DNA from: Chryseobacterium nakagawai
GTDB taxonomy: Bacteria; Bacteroidota; Bacteroidia; Flavobacteriales; Weeksellaceae
Direction of reading: 5' to 3'
Length of the DNA: 64,000 bases
Assembly (NCBI RefSeq): GCF_900637665.1
Contig: NZ_LR134386.1
Span: 2,472,501 to 2,536,500, forward strand
Position 1 is the first letter of the stretch; each line of letters starts with the position of its first letter. Shown piece after piece: positions 57,901-64,000 of the stretch. The notes beneath the pieces are model-generated. The model made no database searches. It had not been told where the DNA came from and saw nothing but the letters and a program-made list of their open reading frames with translations. A program made the position numbers and the translations under genes.

Positions 57901-58097
57901 TTTAGTGTTTAAAAAATTTCAAATGCAAAATTATATGCTTTACATATTATTGAAGTTTTTTAAATCATTCGCTTACTTATTTGCTTTATTATAATAACAC
58001 GAAATAAAAACAAAATATTTATTGATGAATACTTCCAACTTTTCAAACTGAGTATAAATGAAGTAGATTGTAATGGTAGCCTTATCTGTTTTTCTGA

Positions 58098-58346
58098 CAA
58101 ATTAAAAATGTTAAAAATGTTGATCCAAGCTTTCAATCTCGAAGTGGTTTTGTAAACGTATGGTATGTTGACAGTAGCTTCTACTTAAATAAAGATAAAA
58201 GTACATTCCTATCTTTTAGTTATTTTACATCGCTCCCTTATCATACTGTAAACAATGAAAATAGAACTGTAACTAATATTAATTCTAATACCAATCTTGT
58301 AAATGATATGCTCAGGTTAAAATCATTAACTGTTATCATCGGTTAG
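58098..58346 (+). pseudogene. Possible remnant of an outer-membrane barrel protein
   Basis: An open frame without a start (82 codons) reads FQSRSGFVNVWYVDSSFYLN and FLSFSYFTSLPYHTVNNENR, alternating aromatic beta strands as in the C-terminal part of Bacteroidota outer-membrane beta-barrel (TonB-receptor-like) proteins. Too short to be sure. Confidence 0.35.
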
Positions 58347-58604
58347 ATTCCAATTGTTATCTCGAAGTCCATGAGTGATATGGTGCATAATACTCATGAT
58401 AGATATTAAGTAGTGACTTTGAAAAATAATTGATTTTTTAGCATAGGGACTCCATAATTCTAGAGTGGGGTAAAGTTACAAAGATGATGACCTTGAGTAC
58501 TTTTCATATTATTCCTATTGGTTATTTCACATATATAAGTTGTTAGCTAGAAATAATAGAATTGTTTTTGCTTTACATATCGCTTCCAAATCTTTATGAA
58601 ATAA

Positions 58605-58745
58605 ATGAGGGCTACCGACATCCCTTCAACCGTAATCCATCATTATTTGGATGCATATATTTTTGAAAGAGATTTCCGAGCAACAGGAACTCCGGCAAAG
58701 GCTTTTGTTTATGGCGAAGTGTCTGAGTTAGTTTATGAAGTATAA
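58605..58745 (+). CDS. Small hypothetical open frame (46 residues)
   Basis: An ATG at 58605 opens MRATDIPSTVIHHYLDAYIF, ERDFRATGTPAKAFVYGEVS, ELVYEV. Composition is protein-like and it is distinctly more GC-rich than its surroundings, suggesting either a small gene or a 3' remnant of a larger one. No family recognised. Confidence 0.35.
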   Translation: MRATDIPSTVIHHYLDAYIFERDFRATGTPAKAFVYGEVSELVYEV

Positions 58746-59038
58746 TATTCTTCAATATTTAAATACAAAGGTGGGCAAACTCTAAGTTCCCATCTTTTGT
58801 TTTTGTAATTGTTTCAATCTTTAGCCTCAAGAAAAAATTCTTTATCGATTTATAATTTGCATAAGTTATGGCACAAATGAGATTATAAAGTTTTTATGGT
58901 TTGCATATAAATTTGCACCAGCATTAGTAGGTTTGGTAATTGTAAACGATTAAGCTGCCATAATAAACTAATGTTTGAATGTGAAAGACAAATCTAATAT
59001 ATGGCAATCATAGACTAACTTTAATTATTTAATACAGT

Positions 59039-59070
59039 GAGCTATTTCTTTCGAGATAGCTCTTGTTATT
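59039..59070. terminator. Isolated terminator-like hairpin
   Basis: GAGCTAT (59039-59045) pairs with ATAGCTC (59056-59062), followed by a T-rich tract. No gene ends upstream. Confidence 0.4.
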
Positions 59071-59610
59071 TTATTCTTTTTTTTAAAATCTTTCTTAAAA
59101 TAGTGGCTTATTTAAAAAATATAGGTTAATTAATTGTATGGTGTTTTTTCGTTTGGGAAGTATTTATCCTGAAATCTCTATGAATTTTTTTTACATTTTC
59201 CATAAGTTATTGGTTACACATTAGTTTTTATTGTGTCAGGTTATGCCGCTATATAACCGGAATATTGCTGAAATCAAGCTAATGATTTCAAAACTACTAT
59301 TAACCCGGATTCTAATTTTTAGGATCAGTGGCCAAAAACACATTATATTATAATGAGAATATTTAATGCTGTGATAATTTCCTTTTTCAGGAATTGTTGG
59401 ATTTATTGTTTGCTTTCATTACCTCAAAGATGACTTTATATTTACCTTTGAAATAGATTTACAATAAGTTAATGTAGTTTGTTAACTTACTGATAATCAG
59501 TATTATTTAAATGATAAATATGAGAAGACATCAAAGAAGAGTCCCTTAAGACGGGGTGTTGATTCCTATCGCTTGACATTAAAAGACTAACAAAAAATAA
59601 ATCAGAAAAT

Positions 59611-59769
59611 ATGAAAAAGCTTTAGTTAGCTGTATTTCTTGTATGTTCTGGCTTATGTATCTCATTTGCTCAGGGTACAGCGGTCTACTACCAATATGAT
59701 GAGGCTTACAGCCAAAGATATCGTGGACTTCAAAACAATACTATGCAGGCAAACGAAACTGTAGATTAG
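59611..59769 (+). pseudogene. Secreted-protein gene broken at codon 5
   Basis: ATG 59611 reads MKKL, then TAG, then continues in frame with a perfect signal peptide (LAVFLVCSGLCISFAQ) and GTAVYYQYDEAYSQRYRGLQ before stopping at about 59769. A nonsense mutation and a truncated 3' end make it a pseudogene. Confidence 0.55.
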
Positions 59770-59834
59770 CACCTCAATCAATTTTTTCATTCCAATCACC
59801 AATATAGGGATTGGGTTAGGCGAACGTTATTTTT

Positions 59835-60197
59835 ATGAAGCTGGGAGTTCTTAATAAAATTATTTACCCTACTGGCGGTTCTACGACTTATGAATATGAA
59901 CCTAATTATTTTTGGCAAAAGAATAGGAATTATCATTGAGTGTTTTTAGCGGAGGGGGCAGGAGCTTACGCACTTAAAGGCAATTCTGGATGTACAGATG
60001 AGGCCAGGCTTATTTTCCTTACCTCATACAAAACAAGAATATAACACATTGCACAGCAGGTGTTTGGTGTTATAAACTTTGATATTATGCTATCTGGTCA
60101 TCATAATTTAGGTCAGCCATTAACAGCAACGATTGATGTCGACGGAGAAGTCAAAACAGTTGATACAATATTTGAAAAACTTTTTATTAAAAAATAA
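59835..60197 (+). pseudogene. Rhs/YD-repeat protein remnant and following fragment
   Basis: The frame from 59835 reads KLGVLNKIIYPTGGSTTYEY, a sequence typical of Bacteroidota Rhs/YD-repeat proteins (K.G.L..I.YPTGG...YEYE), then stops at TGA (about 59939). The same frame continues to 60197 (LAEGAGAYALKGNSG; INFDIMLSGHHNLGQPLTAT; TVDTIFEKLF) with one further stop. The second part is not recognised. Confidence 0.5.
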
Positions 60198-60387
60198 CAG
60201 TCTTAATGAAGTTGTCTATAGGTAGCTCAAACTTATAAAATGTATGATTCGTAAAAATAGTGTTTTAAAAAGAAGTATTTGTTGCGAAGATCAATCTATT
60301 GATTGAAATATTCGAATACTAATGAAATAAATAACTTATAGAATGATACCAATAGTTCCTATCTATTCCATACTTTCTACTTTTGAA

Positions 60388-60440
60388 AAGTAAGCCATCT
60401 GCACTGTCATTAGTTAAAACTAGGGCAGTCTTTTTCATTT
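60388..60440 (+). ncRNA. Candidate small RNA, unit 1
   Basis: After TACTTTTG (60378-60385) a hairpin ACTGTC/GGCAGT with inner TAG/CTA (60403-60429) is followed by a T-rich tail. Size would be about 50 nt. No frame is conserved between the two units, which favours RNA over protein. Confidence 0.35.
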
Positions 60441-60577
60441 TTTTTTTAATATATAGATAATTCCAATTTCATTCTAATTTCAATTCTTTTTGGATTATCT
60501 TATATGAAAATCTTTAAGACTTACATTGGTTTATGTTTTTACCATTGAAATTTTAAAATTTCATGGACTTAGTTTTT

Positions 60578-60616
60578 AATAGGTTTTTCAGTCTTAAACT
60601 GAAAAACCTATTTTTT
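60578..60616. terminator. Intrinsic terminator, unit 1
   Basis: Perfect 15-bp stem AATAGGTTTTTCAGT/ACTGAAAAACCTATT with a 5-nt loop and a following T-run. Confidence 0.7.
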
Positions 60617-60785
60617 AGATAATTATTTGCGAAAGGATTACCCTTTTTTAATAAAAGACACAGCTATATATACTACCTTAAAATAAAGGACCTTTTTGTT
60701 ATTTCAAAAGGAAATACTGATGAAATAAATAACTTATAGAATGATACCAATAGTTTCTATCTCCCCAATACTTTATACTTTTGAA

Positions 60786-60838
60786 ATGTAAGTAAACGAC
60801 ACTGTCATTAGCTATAACTAGAGCAGTCTTTTTCATGA
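60786..60838 (+). ncRNA. Candidate small RNA, unit 2
   Basis: TACTTTTG (60776-60783) and hairpin ACTG (60801-60804) with GCAGT (60823-60827) and a TCTTTTTC tail repeat the arrangement of unit 1; the paired bases are kept although the loop differs. Confidence 0.35.
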
Positions 60839-60991
60839 TTTTTCCGACAGATAGGTATCCCCCTAATACCATTTAAATCTTTTATCTCGTTGGATTAGTT
60901 GTACGGAAATCTCTATGAATAATTTTGGTCTTGTTTATTCCAATTGAATTTTAAGAGTTTTTCAGTAAATAGTTTTTTTTTCATAAGCCAG

Positions 60992-61026
60992 GGTTTTTCA
61001 GTTTCAGAACTGAAAAACCTTTTTAT
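60992..61026. terminator. Intrinsic terminator, unit 2
   Basis: GGTTTTTCAGTT (60992-61003) with AACTGAAAAACC (61008-61019), loop TCAG, then TTTTTATTTT. Confidence 0.7.
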
Positions 61027-61079
61027 TTTAGATAAGCATTTCTATCTACAATAAGGAGATTATAAGCTTAAGAGGAGCT

Positions 61080-61331
61080 ATGGAAAGATTGAGTGAAAAT
61101 AGAAGTCTTGCATTTGGTATACTGGAAAATAAATTGGATATGTTGACTGATCTAAGTTATGTATATGATTCATCGGAGACGCTTCAAAAAAGTGTGGTGT
61201 TCGATAACAATCTTTATTATGAAAATCGAATCTTTCGAATACCTACCATGATGAAAATATTGTTGCATAATTATTTAAAAATGAAGGATAAAGGACTGCT
61301 TATATACAAAAAAAAGAGGGTCTTTTATTAA
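61080..61331 (+). pseudogene. Possible C-terminal remnant of a site-specific recombinase
   Basis: 83 residues from ATG 61080. LTDLSYVYDSSETLQKSVVF, DNNLYYENRIFRIPTMMKIL and LKMKDKGLLIYKKK resemble the C-terminal end of Bacteroidota serine recombinases (a helix, then [FL]..NLYY..G.YRTPT and MK.KG.L.Y.K). The catalytic N-terminal domain is absent. The frame runs into a hairpin and lies next to a tRNA-end-like sequence, as expected for an integrase at the end of an element. Identity is uncertain. Confidence 0.4.
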
Positions 61332-61342
61332 AAGACCCTCTC
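61316..61342. terminator. Intrinsic terminator hairpin
   Basis: AGAGGGTCTTTT (61316-61327) pairs perfectly with AAAAGACCCTCT (61331-61342). It overlaps the end of the 61080 frame. Confidence 0.65.
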
Positions 61343-61343
61343 A

Positions 61344-61358
61344 GCGGAGAGTGAGGGT
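61344..61358. mobile_element. Possible att remnant: tRNA-Ser 3' end (antisense)
   Basis: AGCGGAGAGTGAGGG is the reverse complement of a tRNA-Ser-like 3' end: T-stem CCCTC, acceptor ACTCTCC, discriminator G, then C. The sequence diverges just where the T-loop should begin, so no tRNA is present. Short tRNA-end copies are typical crossover sites of integrative elements. Confidence 0.4.
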
Positions 61359-61513
61359 TTTTGTAACTTCTTCTCGTCCTTTTATTGATAAGCATTTCGC
61401 TGTAGCATCTTGTGAAAGGCCTTAAATAGGGCATTTGCAAAAAGCGGTAAAATCCAATATAAAAATTTTACGTAGTAAAAGTAGAATTTTTCGTTCGGAT
61501 TTGCAAGTAAAGA

Positions 61514-61807
61514 TTGCTAAATTTTGAACACTTTTTTTCAAATTCATATTTGGAATTTAATACTCTACTTTCTAAATATTTTTATTATTCGAAGGATAAA
61601 GTAAATTTTTATTTATATCATTATCAAAAAAGGGTATCAGGTATACCAAGGTTCAAACTAGTTGATAATCCTCAAATTTGCATTAAAAACTACAGTGAAT
61701 TCATCATTCATTTTCACAAATATCAAAGAAATTGCAATTATGGTTCCAGAATACTTTTGAGTCTAGCTTATAAACTTCAAAGTATACTGTATAATAGATT
61801 ATTTTAA
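61514..61807 (+). CDS. Hypothetical open frame (97 residues)
   Basis: The frame opens with TTG at 61514 and no ATG near the start. It reads YYSKDKVNFYLYHYQKRVSG and YSEFIIHFHKYQRNCNYGSR, rich in Tyr and Lys. No family recognised and no start signal seen; may be a real small gene or an accidental frame in AT-rich DNA. Confidence 0.3.
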   Translation: MLNFEHFFSNSYLEFNTLLSKYFYYSKDKVNFYLYHYQKRVSGIPRFKLVDNPQICIKNYSEFIIHFHKYQRNCNYGSRILLSLAYKLQSILYNRLF

Positions 61808-61940
61808 TTTAACCCAAGTATATTTTTCCAAAGAAGTTCATCTAAAAAGCAATATGTACATTTTTTAAGCAACGATTAAAATATTGATCATATAATAATA
61901 GTAATAGATTGTTAATATGTGATTTTCTTAATCAAAACAA

Positions 61941-62912
61941 TCATAATAATTTAAGTTGTTTTGCTATGTCTTGCGTAAATTTGGCCATAGGTCTTTTATG
62001 GATATCAGCCTCATTAATATAGTTACCTATAAGCAGTTGTTCTAACATTGGACTCTTATCCTTGTAAAGTTTTTTTAAGGCATTTTTTAAAGAATTAGTA
62101 TAAGATTGATTATATATAATCGATTTTAAAACTAATTCTTCTGCAATATCCTTTTGTGTTTCGTAGATACCTTCAATTGCAAATAACGAATTGAAATTAC
62201 TACCTAGTGGCTCTTTAAACTTCAGTTTTAACTCAGAGTTAATACCATTAACTCTATATTTTAATAATGACTTTTTATCTAGTTCAAATTTAAATTTAGA
62301 ACTTTTATATTCATTAAAATCATCTGAGTATAAATTAAAATTTGTAGTATTAGTGCTTTTACTATTATTACAAGGACCACAAACAGGATATAAATTATAA
62401 AATGAAATACTAAAACATGGATAATCTGATTTAGAATAATAATGATCAACTTGAAATTTTGCACACTTTTTACCATTTACAGTTCTAACAGTTAAAGCAT
62501 ATTGAGAACTACAATAGACACAGGTTTTTATACCAATTTTTTCAAAATATTCGGAATAAAAATTATCTCTTAAATCTTTATATCCCAATCTTCTATTCAG
62601 TTCATTACGAAATTCTTTATAAGTAGTAGTTTTCATTAATTTAACACTTATAATACTATCAAAAACAATCTTGAAATTTTGAATTTCAAAAGTGTTAGCT
62701 AAGACAATTTTTTCAAAATTTCCATACAACTCTTGTAAATAGGCTAACTGATTACCTATTAACACTATAGATGTTGGTTTTCTATTAACTATTTTAGTTG
62801 GATTATTAATAAAGTGCAATAATTCTGCCTTTCTGCTGGAAATTAGAGCATCAATATTTAGTTTATCTTTAATATGGATATCAATTAATATCTTGGAATT
62901 TATTGAAATCAT
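61941..62912 (-). CDS. HNH endonuclease of an ATPase/HNH pair
   Basis: 323 residues. The HNH/zinc unit lies in the middle: CVYC (C131, C134), FQVDHYYSKSDYP (D156-H157), FYNLYPVCGPCNNSKS (N173, C178, C181). The first 125 residues (KILIDIHIKDKLNIDALI and following) and the last 130 flank it and are unlike known small HNH proteins. It should cut DNA or RNA. Its start overlaps the ATPase stop in a TAATG, so the two are translationally coupled and very likely act as one complex, as PtuB and PtuA do in Septu. Confidence 0.8.
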   Translation of the reverse strand: MISINSKILIDIHIKDKLNIDALISSRKAELLHFINNPTKIVNRKPTSIVLIGNQLAYLQELYGNFEKIVLANTFEIQNFKIVFDSIISVKLMKTTTYKEFRNELNRRLGYKDLRDNFYSEYFEKIGIKTCVYCSSQYALTVRTVNGKKCAKFQVDHYYSKSDYPCFSISFYNLYPVCGPCNNSKSTNTTNFNLYSDDFNEYKSSKFKFELDKKSLLKYRVNGINSELKLKFKEPLGSNFNSLFAIEGIYETQKDIAEELVLKSIIYNQSYTNSLKNALKKLYKDKSPMLEQLLIGNYINEADIHKRPMAKFTQDIAKQLKLL

Positions 62913-64000
62913 TATTTACCAATTTTTTTTATTTTAATCTTCTTTAATCGTTCAATTTCCATATCAATTTCATCAATCTCTATTTGCTCATTATTATAGT
63001 ATTTATTAAAAAACATTTCTCTCAACTCTATACGAATTAACGGCTCACCAATTAATTCTATAAATTCTTTAGCGTTTTCTTCACTCCACTCATTGTTAAT
63101 GTTTTTATTTTCATTAATATAATCAATTAAAGAATTTATTTTGGTTTTTACAAATTCTCCCATAAACCCATTTCTTAAAAAGAATTCATTAGCTAAAATA
63201 TCATTGATATTAGCACCAAACGTCTCCTCTTTATTATTAAATGGTTGTGGAGAGCCATTTTTAAGTTTTAATACATTAGCATTTGATATATCAGATAAAA
63301 TAAAAGGTGAATGCGTCAGAAAAGTAATATTAATTCCTTTAATATTTTTAATACTATTATGAGGAATTTTACGGATAGAACCTAGCAAATCTTTTACATA
63401 ATTGCGTTGCCAATCAGGATGATAATATAGTTCAATTTCATCTAAAATAATATTTATATATGGATAACTATCATATTTATCTTTATCATCTTCATCCTTT
63501 ACTGAATTTAAATTAATAATGTGGTATATAATTGAACTATTGCTATGTATTCTTTGTTTTTCACCTGAACTTAATGATGAAAATAAAGACCCGTCCGAAA
63601 GAATGATTTCAGTCTCGAAAAAACTTGGAGGTACCATGGTAAATGTGTTAATAAAATAATCACTCTCTTTTTCTCTTATCTTTGTAATCTTTTTAGATAA
63701 ATCTTCAATATCAATAATCAAATCTTGTTTGCTTAGACTATACTTATTCCCAAATATTAGTTCATAATATTTAAGATACAAAATAGCTCCTTTCACTTTA
63801 AATACAATGTGACTATTTCCATATTTAATTCTTTTAATATATGAATCAATATATTTAAGACTATCACCATCCTTATACTTATAATAAGGTCGATATTTTG
63901 AACTCATTTTTAGTAATTTTTCAATAATGTAATTAATACATATATTAGTAAAAAAATTTCCGTCTAAATGTTCCTGTTTTATTTTAAATCTAAAGTTGTC
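62912..64000 (-). CDS. ABC/AAA-type ATPase of the HNH pair (N-terminus outside window)
   Basis: The frame is open from the stop at 62914-62912 to base 64000 (362 residues). An ATG at 63907 is internal: 31 sense codons precede it. Visible motifs, counted from that Met, are the signature LSSGEKQ (112-118), Walker B with catalytic Glu in IILDEIELYYHPD (153-165), and the His switch FLTHSPF (196-202). Walker A must lie upstream of the window. The layout is that of SMC/OLD/PtuA-like ATPases in phage defence. The HNH gene follows with a 1-nt overlap. Confidence 0.8.
   Translation of the reverse strand, partial: DNFRFKIKQEHLDGNFFTNICINYIIEKLLKMSSKYRPYYKYKDGDSLKYIDSYIKRIKYGNSHIVFKVKGAILYLKYYELIFGNKYSLSKQDLIIDIEDLSKKITKIREKESDYFINTFTMVPPSFFETEIILSDGSLFSSLSSGEKQRIHSNSSIIYHIINLNSVKDEDDKDKYDSYPYINIILDEIELYYHPDWQRNYVKDLLGSIRKIPHNSIKNIKGINITFLTHSPFILSDISNANVLKLKNGSPQPFNNKEETFGANINDILANEFFLRNGFMGEFVKTKINSLIDYINENKNINNEWSEENAKEFIELIGEPLIRIELREMFFNKYYNNEQIEIDEIDMEIERLKKIKIKKIGK

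Follow-up and report, generated by a model that had tools for sequence, protein, structure and literature searches.

Does the ATPase-HNH gene pair at the right-hand end of a 64,000-nucleotide stretch of the Chryseobacterium nakagawai chromosome represent a new class of Septu-like defence system, as an initial annotation of the DNA had raised as a possibility, or does it belong to a system that already bears a name? The stretch, here called the window, corresponds to G000:C1:2472501-2536500 of a 5.60-Mb single-contig genome, and the ATPase gene was read past base 64000 in the same genome. The pair consists of the following features (window positions):

61941..62912, minus strand: gene of the HNH nuclease (323 residues), PDC-M62B, predicted PtuB-like fold
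62912..64000, minus strand: 3' part of the ATPase gene, PDC-M62A, PtuA-related; the full gene (658 residues) reaches 64888, beyond the window
62910..62914, minus strand: TAATG stop/start overlap of the ATPase stop and the HNH start

We propose that the pair is probably PDC-M62 in complete form, a two-gene module related to Septu that is carried as exchangeable cargo just inside one end of a defence island integrated at tRNA-Ser and acts by an ATPase-gated HNH nuclease. Gene content, intact motifs, conserved pairing of the two genes, the predicted PtuB fold of the nuclease, the island setting and the exchange of cargo in close relatives ground this proposal, and a phage defence module is the most likely role of the pair.

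The annotated motifs and the translational coupling were found again at the positions listed above. The complete ATPase carries the signature LSSGEKQ (residue 439), the Walker B segment ILDEIELYYHP (481 onwards) and the switch segment THSPF (525 onwards), and the Walker A motif that was to be sought beyond base 64000 is present as GNNGSGKSS at residue 85; the ABC-type ATPase thus has the Walker A, signature, Walker B and switch histidine that characterise Septu. In the HNH protein, C131xxC134, D156-H157, N173 and C178xxC181-N182 form the motif that had been described as CxxC..DH..CxxC. Both genes have a guanine plus cytosine (GC) content of 25%, compared to 34% for hsdR, in line with the AT-richness noted before. 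A third gene, also asked for, was not seen: the next gene upstream of the ATPase, on the same strand after a gap of 140 bp, is hsdR, and downstream (58000-61940) the only open reading frames (ORFs) of at least 60 residues encode 83 and 97 residues. The HNH coding sequence further contains an imperfect palindrome of 51 bases (85%; 62090-62140), which aligned with its own reverse complement when the genome was searched.

In PADLOC-DB the top model of the ATPase is PDC-M62A (PDLC04737, E 1e-48; residues 78-654 of 658, model positions 52-596 of 601) and that of the HNH protein is PDC-M62B (PDLC04743, E 3.2e-46; residues 53-321 of 323, model positions 40-324 of 328). The runners-up of the HNH protein are far weaker and cover short stretches (PDC-M01B, 4.1e-09; PtuB1, 2.5e-07), and PtuA1 matches a short stretch of the ATPase far behind PDC-M62A (2.7e-16). 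Expressed in bits, M62A reaches 165 versus 58 for PtuA1 and M62B 157 versus 28 for PtuB1; the best match is therefore neither PtuA1 nor PtuB1. Both partners thus match their respective PDC-M62 models and are encoded side by side in one operon. Because the two proteins match one named candidate system over most of their length, a separate class is unsupported, and we rejected the idea of a new one. The result that the initial annotation itself had named as a refutation, a full-length match of both proteins to a named defence subtype, was largely obtained. Nor do the size and the terminal extensions of the nuclease mark such a class, since 323 residues are ordinary for the family (289-412 residues in 48 adjacent pairs) and the protein aligns to PtuB-type proteins from the first to the last residues. 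Judged by its sequence, the pair is a well-preserved member of an already catalogued candidate class allied to Septu; what stands of the original description is a Septu-like ATPase-HNH pair on DNA that looks mobile.

The class itself is little described. The PDC names denote unpublished candidates of Payne et al., according to the parts consulted of a survey of Bacillus cereus genomes (PMC11811056), the only article in which a literature search for 'PDC-M62' turned up the name. These parts list PDC-M62 among the protein sets that DefenseFinder names differently and report 244 PADLOC duplicates between Septu and PDC in B. cereus (203 PDC-M62 and 41 PDC-M01), i.e. the same proteins received both names within PADLOC. 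This double naming would suit a pair that is simply a diverged canonical Septu or retron I-A effector with the same substrate, the variable loop of tRNA-Tyr. The PtuB-type fold points in the same direction, as does the order of the PADLOC models, in which PtuA1 follows most M62A models and PtuB1 follows M62B and PDC-M01B. However, the NCBIfam models, which were built for the retron Ec78 effectors, reach only 46.7 bits for PtuA (cut-off 500) and 19.1 bits for PtuB (cut-off 150). The suggested comparison with PtuA and PtuB models gave matches to PtuA1 and PtuB1, although weaker ones than to PDC-M62 and below the curated NCBIfam thresholds. In addition, a Septu system of a close relative (G275, see below) shares only 24-25% identity over 63 and 56 residues. 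The neighbouring genes read contain no reverse transcriptase (hsdR, integrase, hsdS and hsdM upstream; only the two short ORFs downstream to 58000), and Rfam gave no match over 58000-64000, a search that would overlook a retron RNA not represented in Rfam. We consider a diverged Septu or retron effector quite unlikely.

The relationship to PtuB is also apparent at the level of predicted structure, as compared with the 121 chains ranked highest by Foldseek. The predicted fold of the HNH protein leaves 120-143 of its 323 residues unaligned; because the alignment to PtuB-type proteins nevertheless spans the first to the last residues, the protein is presumably a PtuB with insertions, the PtuB fold being predicted across its length, rather than a foreign architecture. 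His157 and Asn173 align to a solved PtuB-type protein (sequence-profile E 0.25-0.3), and their spacing of 16 is that of H75/N91 in the consulted part of PMC13096335. Two matches to staphylopine dehydrogenase (E 0.04-0.05), ranked above the PtuB-type chain at E 0.25, lie outside the HNH motif and were taken as chance. The closest solved relative of the ATPase is PtuA (8ee4, E 7.7e-07). The nuclease model suggests that the little-characterised PDC-M62 uses a PtuB-fold nuclease, which would tie it to Septu and to the retron effectors and indicates a route for tests.

Protein searches at an E value of 0.001 returned 356 relatives of the HNH protein and 2490 of the ATPase, two numbers that are not comparable because scoring in the ATPase search was confined to the 8000 candidates with the most shared words. 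From the top 120 listed for either protein we chose sequences for alignment, which with our own numbered 85 for the HNH protein and 76 for the ATPase. In these alignments the HNH motif shows no change at its C, D/H and N residues, His157 and Asn173 among them, and each of the four ATPase motifs keeps its key residues in all or at least 90% of the sequences. Genomic pairing was determined for HNH ORFs of at least 200 residues (the shorter one of L066 being left out) in 46 named loci from one scan of GTDB contigs, in our own locus and in nine fetched regions, with an ATPase looked for within -200 to +400 nucleotides. It lies directly upstream of the HNH gene in 48 of the 56 cases, own included, with gaps of -62 to +12 nucleotides; seven of the other eight match the HNH protein only weakly (E 6e-10 or worse), and in L076 the ATPase is on the other strand. 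Similarities of the partners are correlated (Spearman 0.29, a value reached in 1 of 2000 permutations; based on 44 pairs after four with short ATPase ORFs were dropped). Two loci (L067:7522-12618 and L068:2481-7577) have a three-gene variant, ATPase-HNH-ATPase, in which a single M62 nuclease is flanked by M62A proteins of two different types.

This conserved pairing already contradicts a housekeeping or metabolic ATPase with an HNH gene as chance neighbour, a reading that is barely credible and to which the Pfam result, only the generic AAA_21 and AAA_23 above cut-off, could be adduced. The distribution is patchy as well: at E 1e-10 the HNH protein was found in 7 of 198 genomes of the class and the ATPase in 11, own included in each case. 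Among 59 relatives, 14 (again with our own) have some HNH match at E 0.001, of which several are weak and one contains stops. The low GC content and an island with several other defence-type genes likewise speak against a housekeeping function. The HNH protein had no match in 50,697 phage records, and none of 29 pattern hits in viral contigs was confirmed; a phage-borne system was therefore rejected. Eight plasmid records contain HNH matches with at most 31% identity.

How the pair might work can be modelled on reports of Septu EcB88, retron-Eco7 and other PtuAB proteins, which lead us to favour an HNH nuclease that is gated by the ATPase and directed at tRNA or phage DNA. In Septu EcB88, ATPase and HNH residues are both required, and the cut falls in the variable loop of tRNA-Tyr, as described in the part seen of PMC13096335. 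In the portion consulted of PMC11555353, toxicity of retron-Eco7 needs PtuA and PtuB, with depletion of tRNA-Tyr, activity on nicked DNA is reported for another Escherichia coli Septu, and retron-Eco4 apparently leaves tRNA intact. For PDC-M62 we infer complex formation, gating, trigger, substrate and defence activity as follows. The ABC-type ATPase (M62A) would form a nucleotide-bound oligomer that keeps M62B, the PtuB-fold HNH nuclease, inactive. Once the ATPase senses a change induced by the phage, the nuclease would be released or activated and may then cut nucleic acid, either host tRNA or phage DNA, via the HNH centre of His157 and Asn173. Such cutting would stop the infection, and the cell would probably be lost in the process.

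Several points weigh against this proposal. No phage assay of the pair or of any PDC-M62 system was found in the literature, the preprint of Payne et al. lying outside what was covered. RNA and DNA substrates cannot be told apart from sequence, and PtuAB proteins reportedly differ in their targets (PMC11555353, as far as consulted). The correlation between the partners is modest, and three pairs of loci join similar nucleases to dissimilar ATPases. Finally, the resemblance to the Septu of G275 is at motif level only (25% over 56 residues, E 0.054; 24% over 63 residues, E 0.002).

The initial annotation had also suspected a mobile-element junction next to the pair, and a tRNA-Ser att-like site is indeed located there:

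61344..61357, plus strand: 14-base copy of the tRNA-Ser(TGA) 3' end, attL-like, left edge of the island
61343..61566, no strand assigned: conserved non-coding island end, 93-96% identical in three close relatives and 79-80% in two more
61344..64000, no strand assigned: window part of a putative integrative defence island of about 42.4 kb that continues to genome position 2576277

The sequence GCGGAGAGTGAGGG at 61344-61357 is the tRNA-Ser(TGA) 3' end on the complement. Four copies, all forward, exist in the genome (zero for the reversed control pattern); ARAGORN called tRNA-Ser(TGA) at two of them and no tRNA at the other two. The intact tRNA-Ser at genome position 2576262-2576349 and the copy at 61344 bound 42.4 kb, and a tyrosine integrase of 405 residues (PF00589 4.9e-18, Arm-DNA-bind_5, Phage_int_SAM_5) adjoins the intact tRNA. 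Two copies are also found 39-46 kb apart in the close relatives G264 (C19, 82 and 45992), G288 (C24, 56054 and 16906) and G275 (C1, 4702405 and 4741225). With our own genome counted, three of the four have a called tRNA-Ser at the far copy, and only G275 does not. A mobile defence island integrated at tRNA-Ser is a well-supported, if putative, interpretation of this arrangement. Its cargo comprises the M62 pair, a type I restriction-modification (RM) system with two opposed hsdS genes and a second recombinase, a Druantia-like set, Vsr, PDC-M16A/B and genes not assigned to defence.

The pair does not have a fixed place in this cargo. G264, G288 and G275 were chosen from 78 genomes by a flanking protein of 94-97% identity. 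The block from hsdR to the integrase is 93% identical in G264 and G288; homology ends at the end of hsdR and resumes at the island end (61343-61566), which is flanked on either side by sequence that diverges among the four aligned genomes. In between, G264 carries a different M62 pair (584 and 335 residues, with PDLC04733 at 2.8e-97 and PDLC04743 at 2.3e-42 as top models) and two further genes. In G288 the interval is occupied by a HEC-06/Orf5-like gene, by one that weakly matches REase_II and by others. The locus of G275, at which no hsdR was seen, contains a methyltransferase, a HerA-like gene and a Septu system according to PADLOC (PtuA1 1.8e-214, PtuB1 2.8e-112). M62 pairs of two kinds, HEC-06/Orf5-like genes and Septu thus replace each other at a natural exchange site, which would make the anti-phage ranges of alternative cargo comparable in one setting.

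PrrC guards its host RM system. The position of our pair, directly after hsdR on the same strand, would allow for a similar back-up of the adjacent type I restriction system, set off once that system is disabled by a phage inhibitor. The homologous slot in G264 holds an M62 pair too, and an hsdR match occurs in 4 of 46 named loci (L045, L047, L052 and L077), all of them among the 38 in which the pair is adjacent; in L088, hsdR lies directly before the pair. The best NCBIfam row of the ATPase, TIGR04435, is named 'restriction system-associated AAA family ATPase', though it scores 52 of 300 bits. Conversely, 42 of the 46 loci have no hsdR match in their flanks (at most 10 kb, some shorter; one-query search), and in the six other genomes of the class with the HNH protein a match is close by in G097 only, while 86 of 198 genomes have one somewhere. 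The G288 slot after hsdR holds other cargo, and clustering with RM genes is expected for any defence gene of an island. We regard a dedicated back-up as unlikely. A wider conjecture, about as improbable as a diverged Septu, is that PDC-M62 is a separate large-ATPase branch of PtuAB with its own trigger and target. Copies behind hsdR would guard a possibly phase-variable type I RM system, firing on phage inhibition of restriction or on an unsafe flip of the specificity subunit, and the island would be a two-layer defence whose second layer (M62, HEC-06/Orf5-like or Septu at the same chromosomal site) is freely swapped.

Other parts of the island and its surroundings can be summarised briefly. 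Two opposed hsdS genes lie beside a tyrosine recombinase of 308 residues (L003:15996-19319, window-equivalent 67996-71319); the type I RM system is possibly phase-variable by this gene arrangement, and the inverted repeats at the locus are weak (74-81%, 25-37 nucleotides). The Druantia-like set (L004:12906 to L119:4421, window-equivalent 84906-96421) comprises a fused DruF/DruL (942 residues), DruE (2026 residues, the first 1420 being matched), DruK and the cytosine methylase DruM, followed by Vsr. The candidate pair PDC-M16A/B (L119:4572-10110; 992 and 856 residues, the second with TOTE-conflict S1/CSD domains) adjoins the island integrase. Just left of the island edge, two stretches of non-coding sequence (60325-60450 and 60721-60850) appear similar by eye. 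A structured RNA at the island end was rejected (RNAalifold covariation term +2, unfavourable; 6 sequences, 3 of 53 pairs changed on both sides; no Rfam match). A second pair of tRNA-Ser 3'-end copies, one a called tRNA, is 16 kb apart at G000:C1:2354373-2370519 (L120) and encloses, by names taken from ORF reading, apparent RHS-type repeat proteins and an IS3-like transposase.

To which known system does the pair come closest? Gabija combines the OLD-type nuclease GajA with the UvrD-like helicase GajB; it was rejected, as the partner here is an HNH protein and no Gabija model is among the best 25 of 48 and the best 25 of 41 PADLOC rows for the two proteins. PARIS has a related ATPase class, and AriA gives a weak profile match to our ATPase (E 0.0073). 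The PARIS partner is AriB, a Toprim nuclease effector, in contrast to the HNH protein here, and PARIS was rejected on this ground. Retron I-A effectors (Ec78 PtuAB, Ec83 ATPase) were rejected on the gene neighbourhood and the Rfam result given above. Septu shares an HNH nuclease with catalytic histidine and asparagine, as His157 and Asn173 here, but its solved E. coli chains (8ee4/8eea) are smaller (ATPase 465 versus 658 residues, nuclease 234 versus 323), and the curated cut-offs and the identity to the G275 proteins set our pair apart from it. PDC-M62 provides the top model for each of the two proteins, covering most of their length, and has its two genes adjacent, as here. No tested feature separates the pair from this candidate system, of which it appears to be a Chryseobacterium member.
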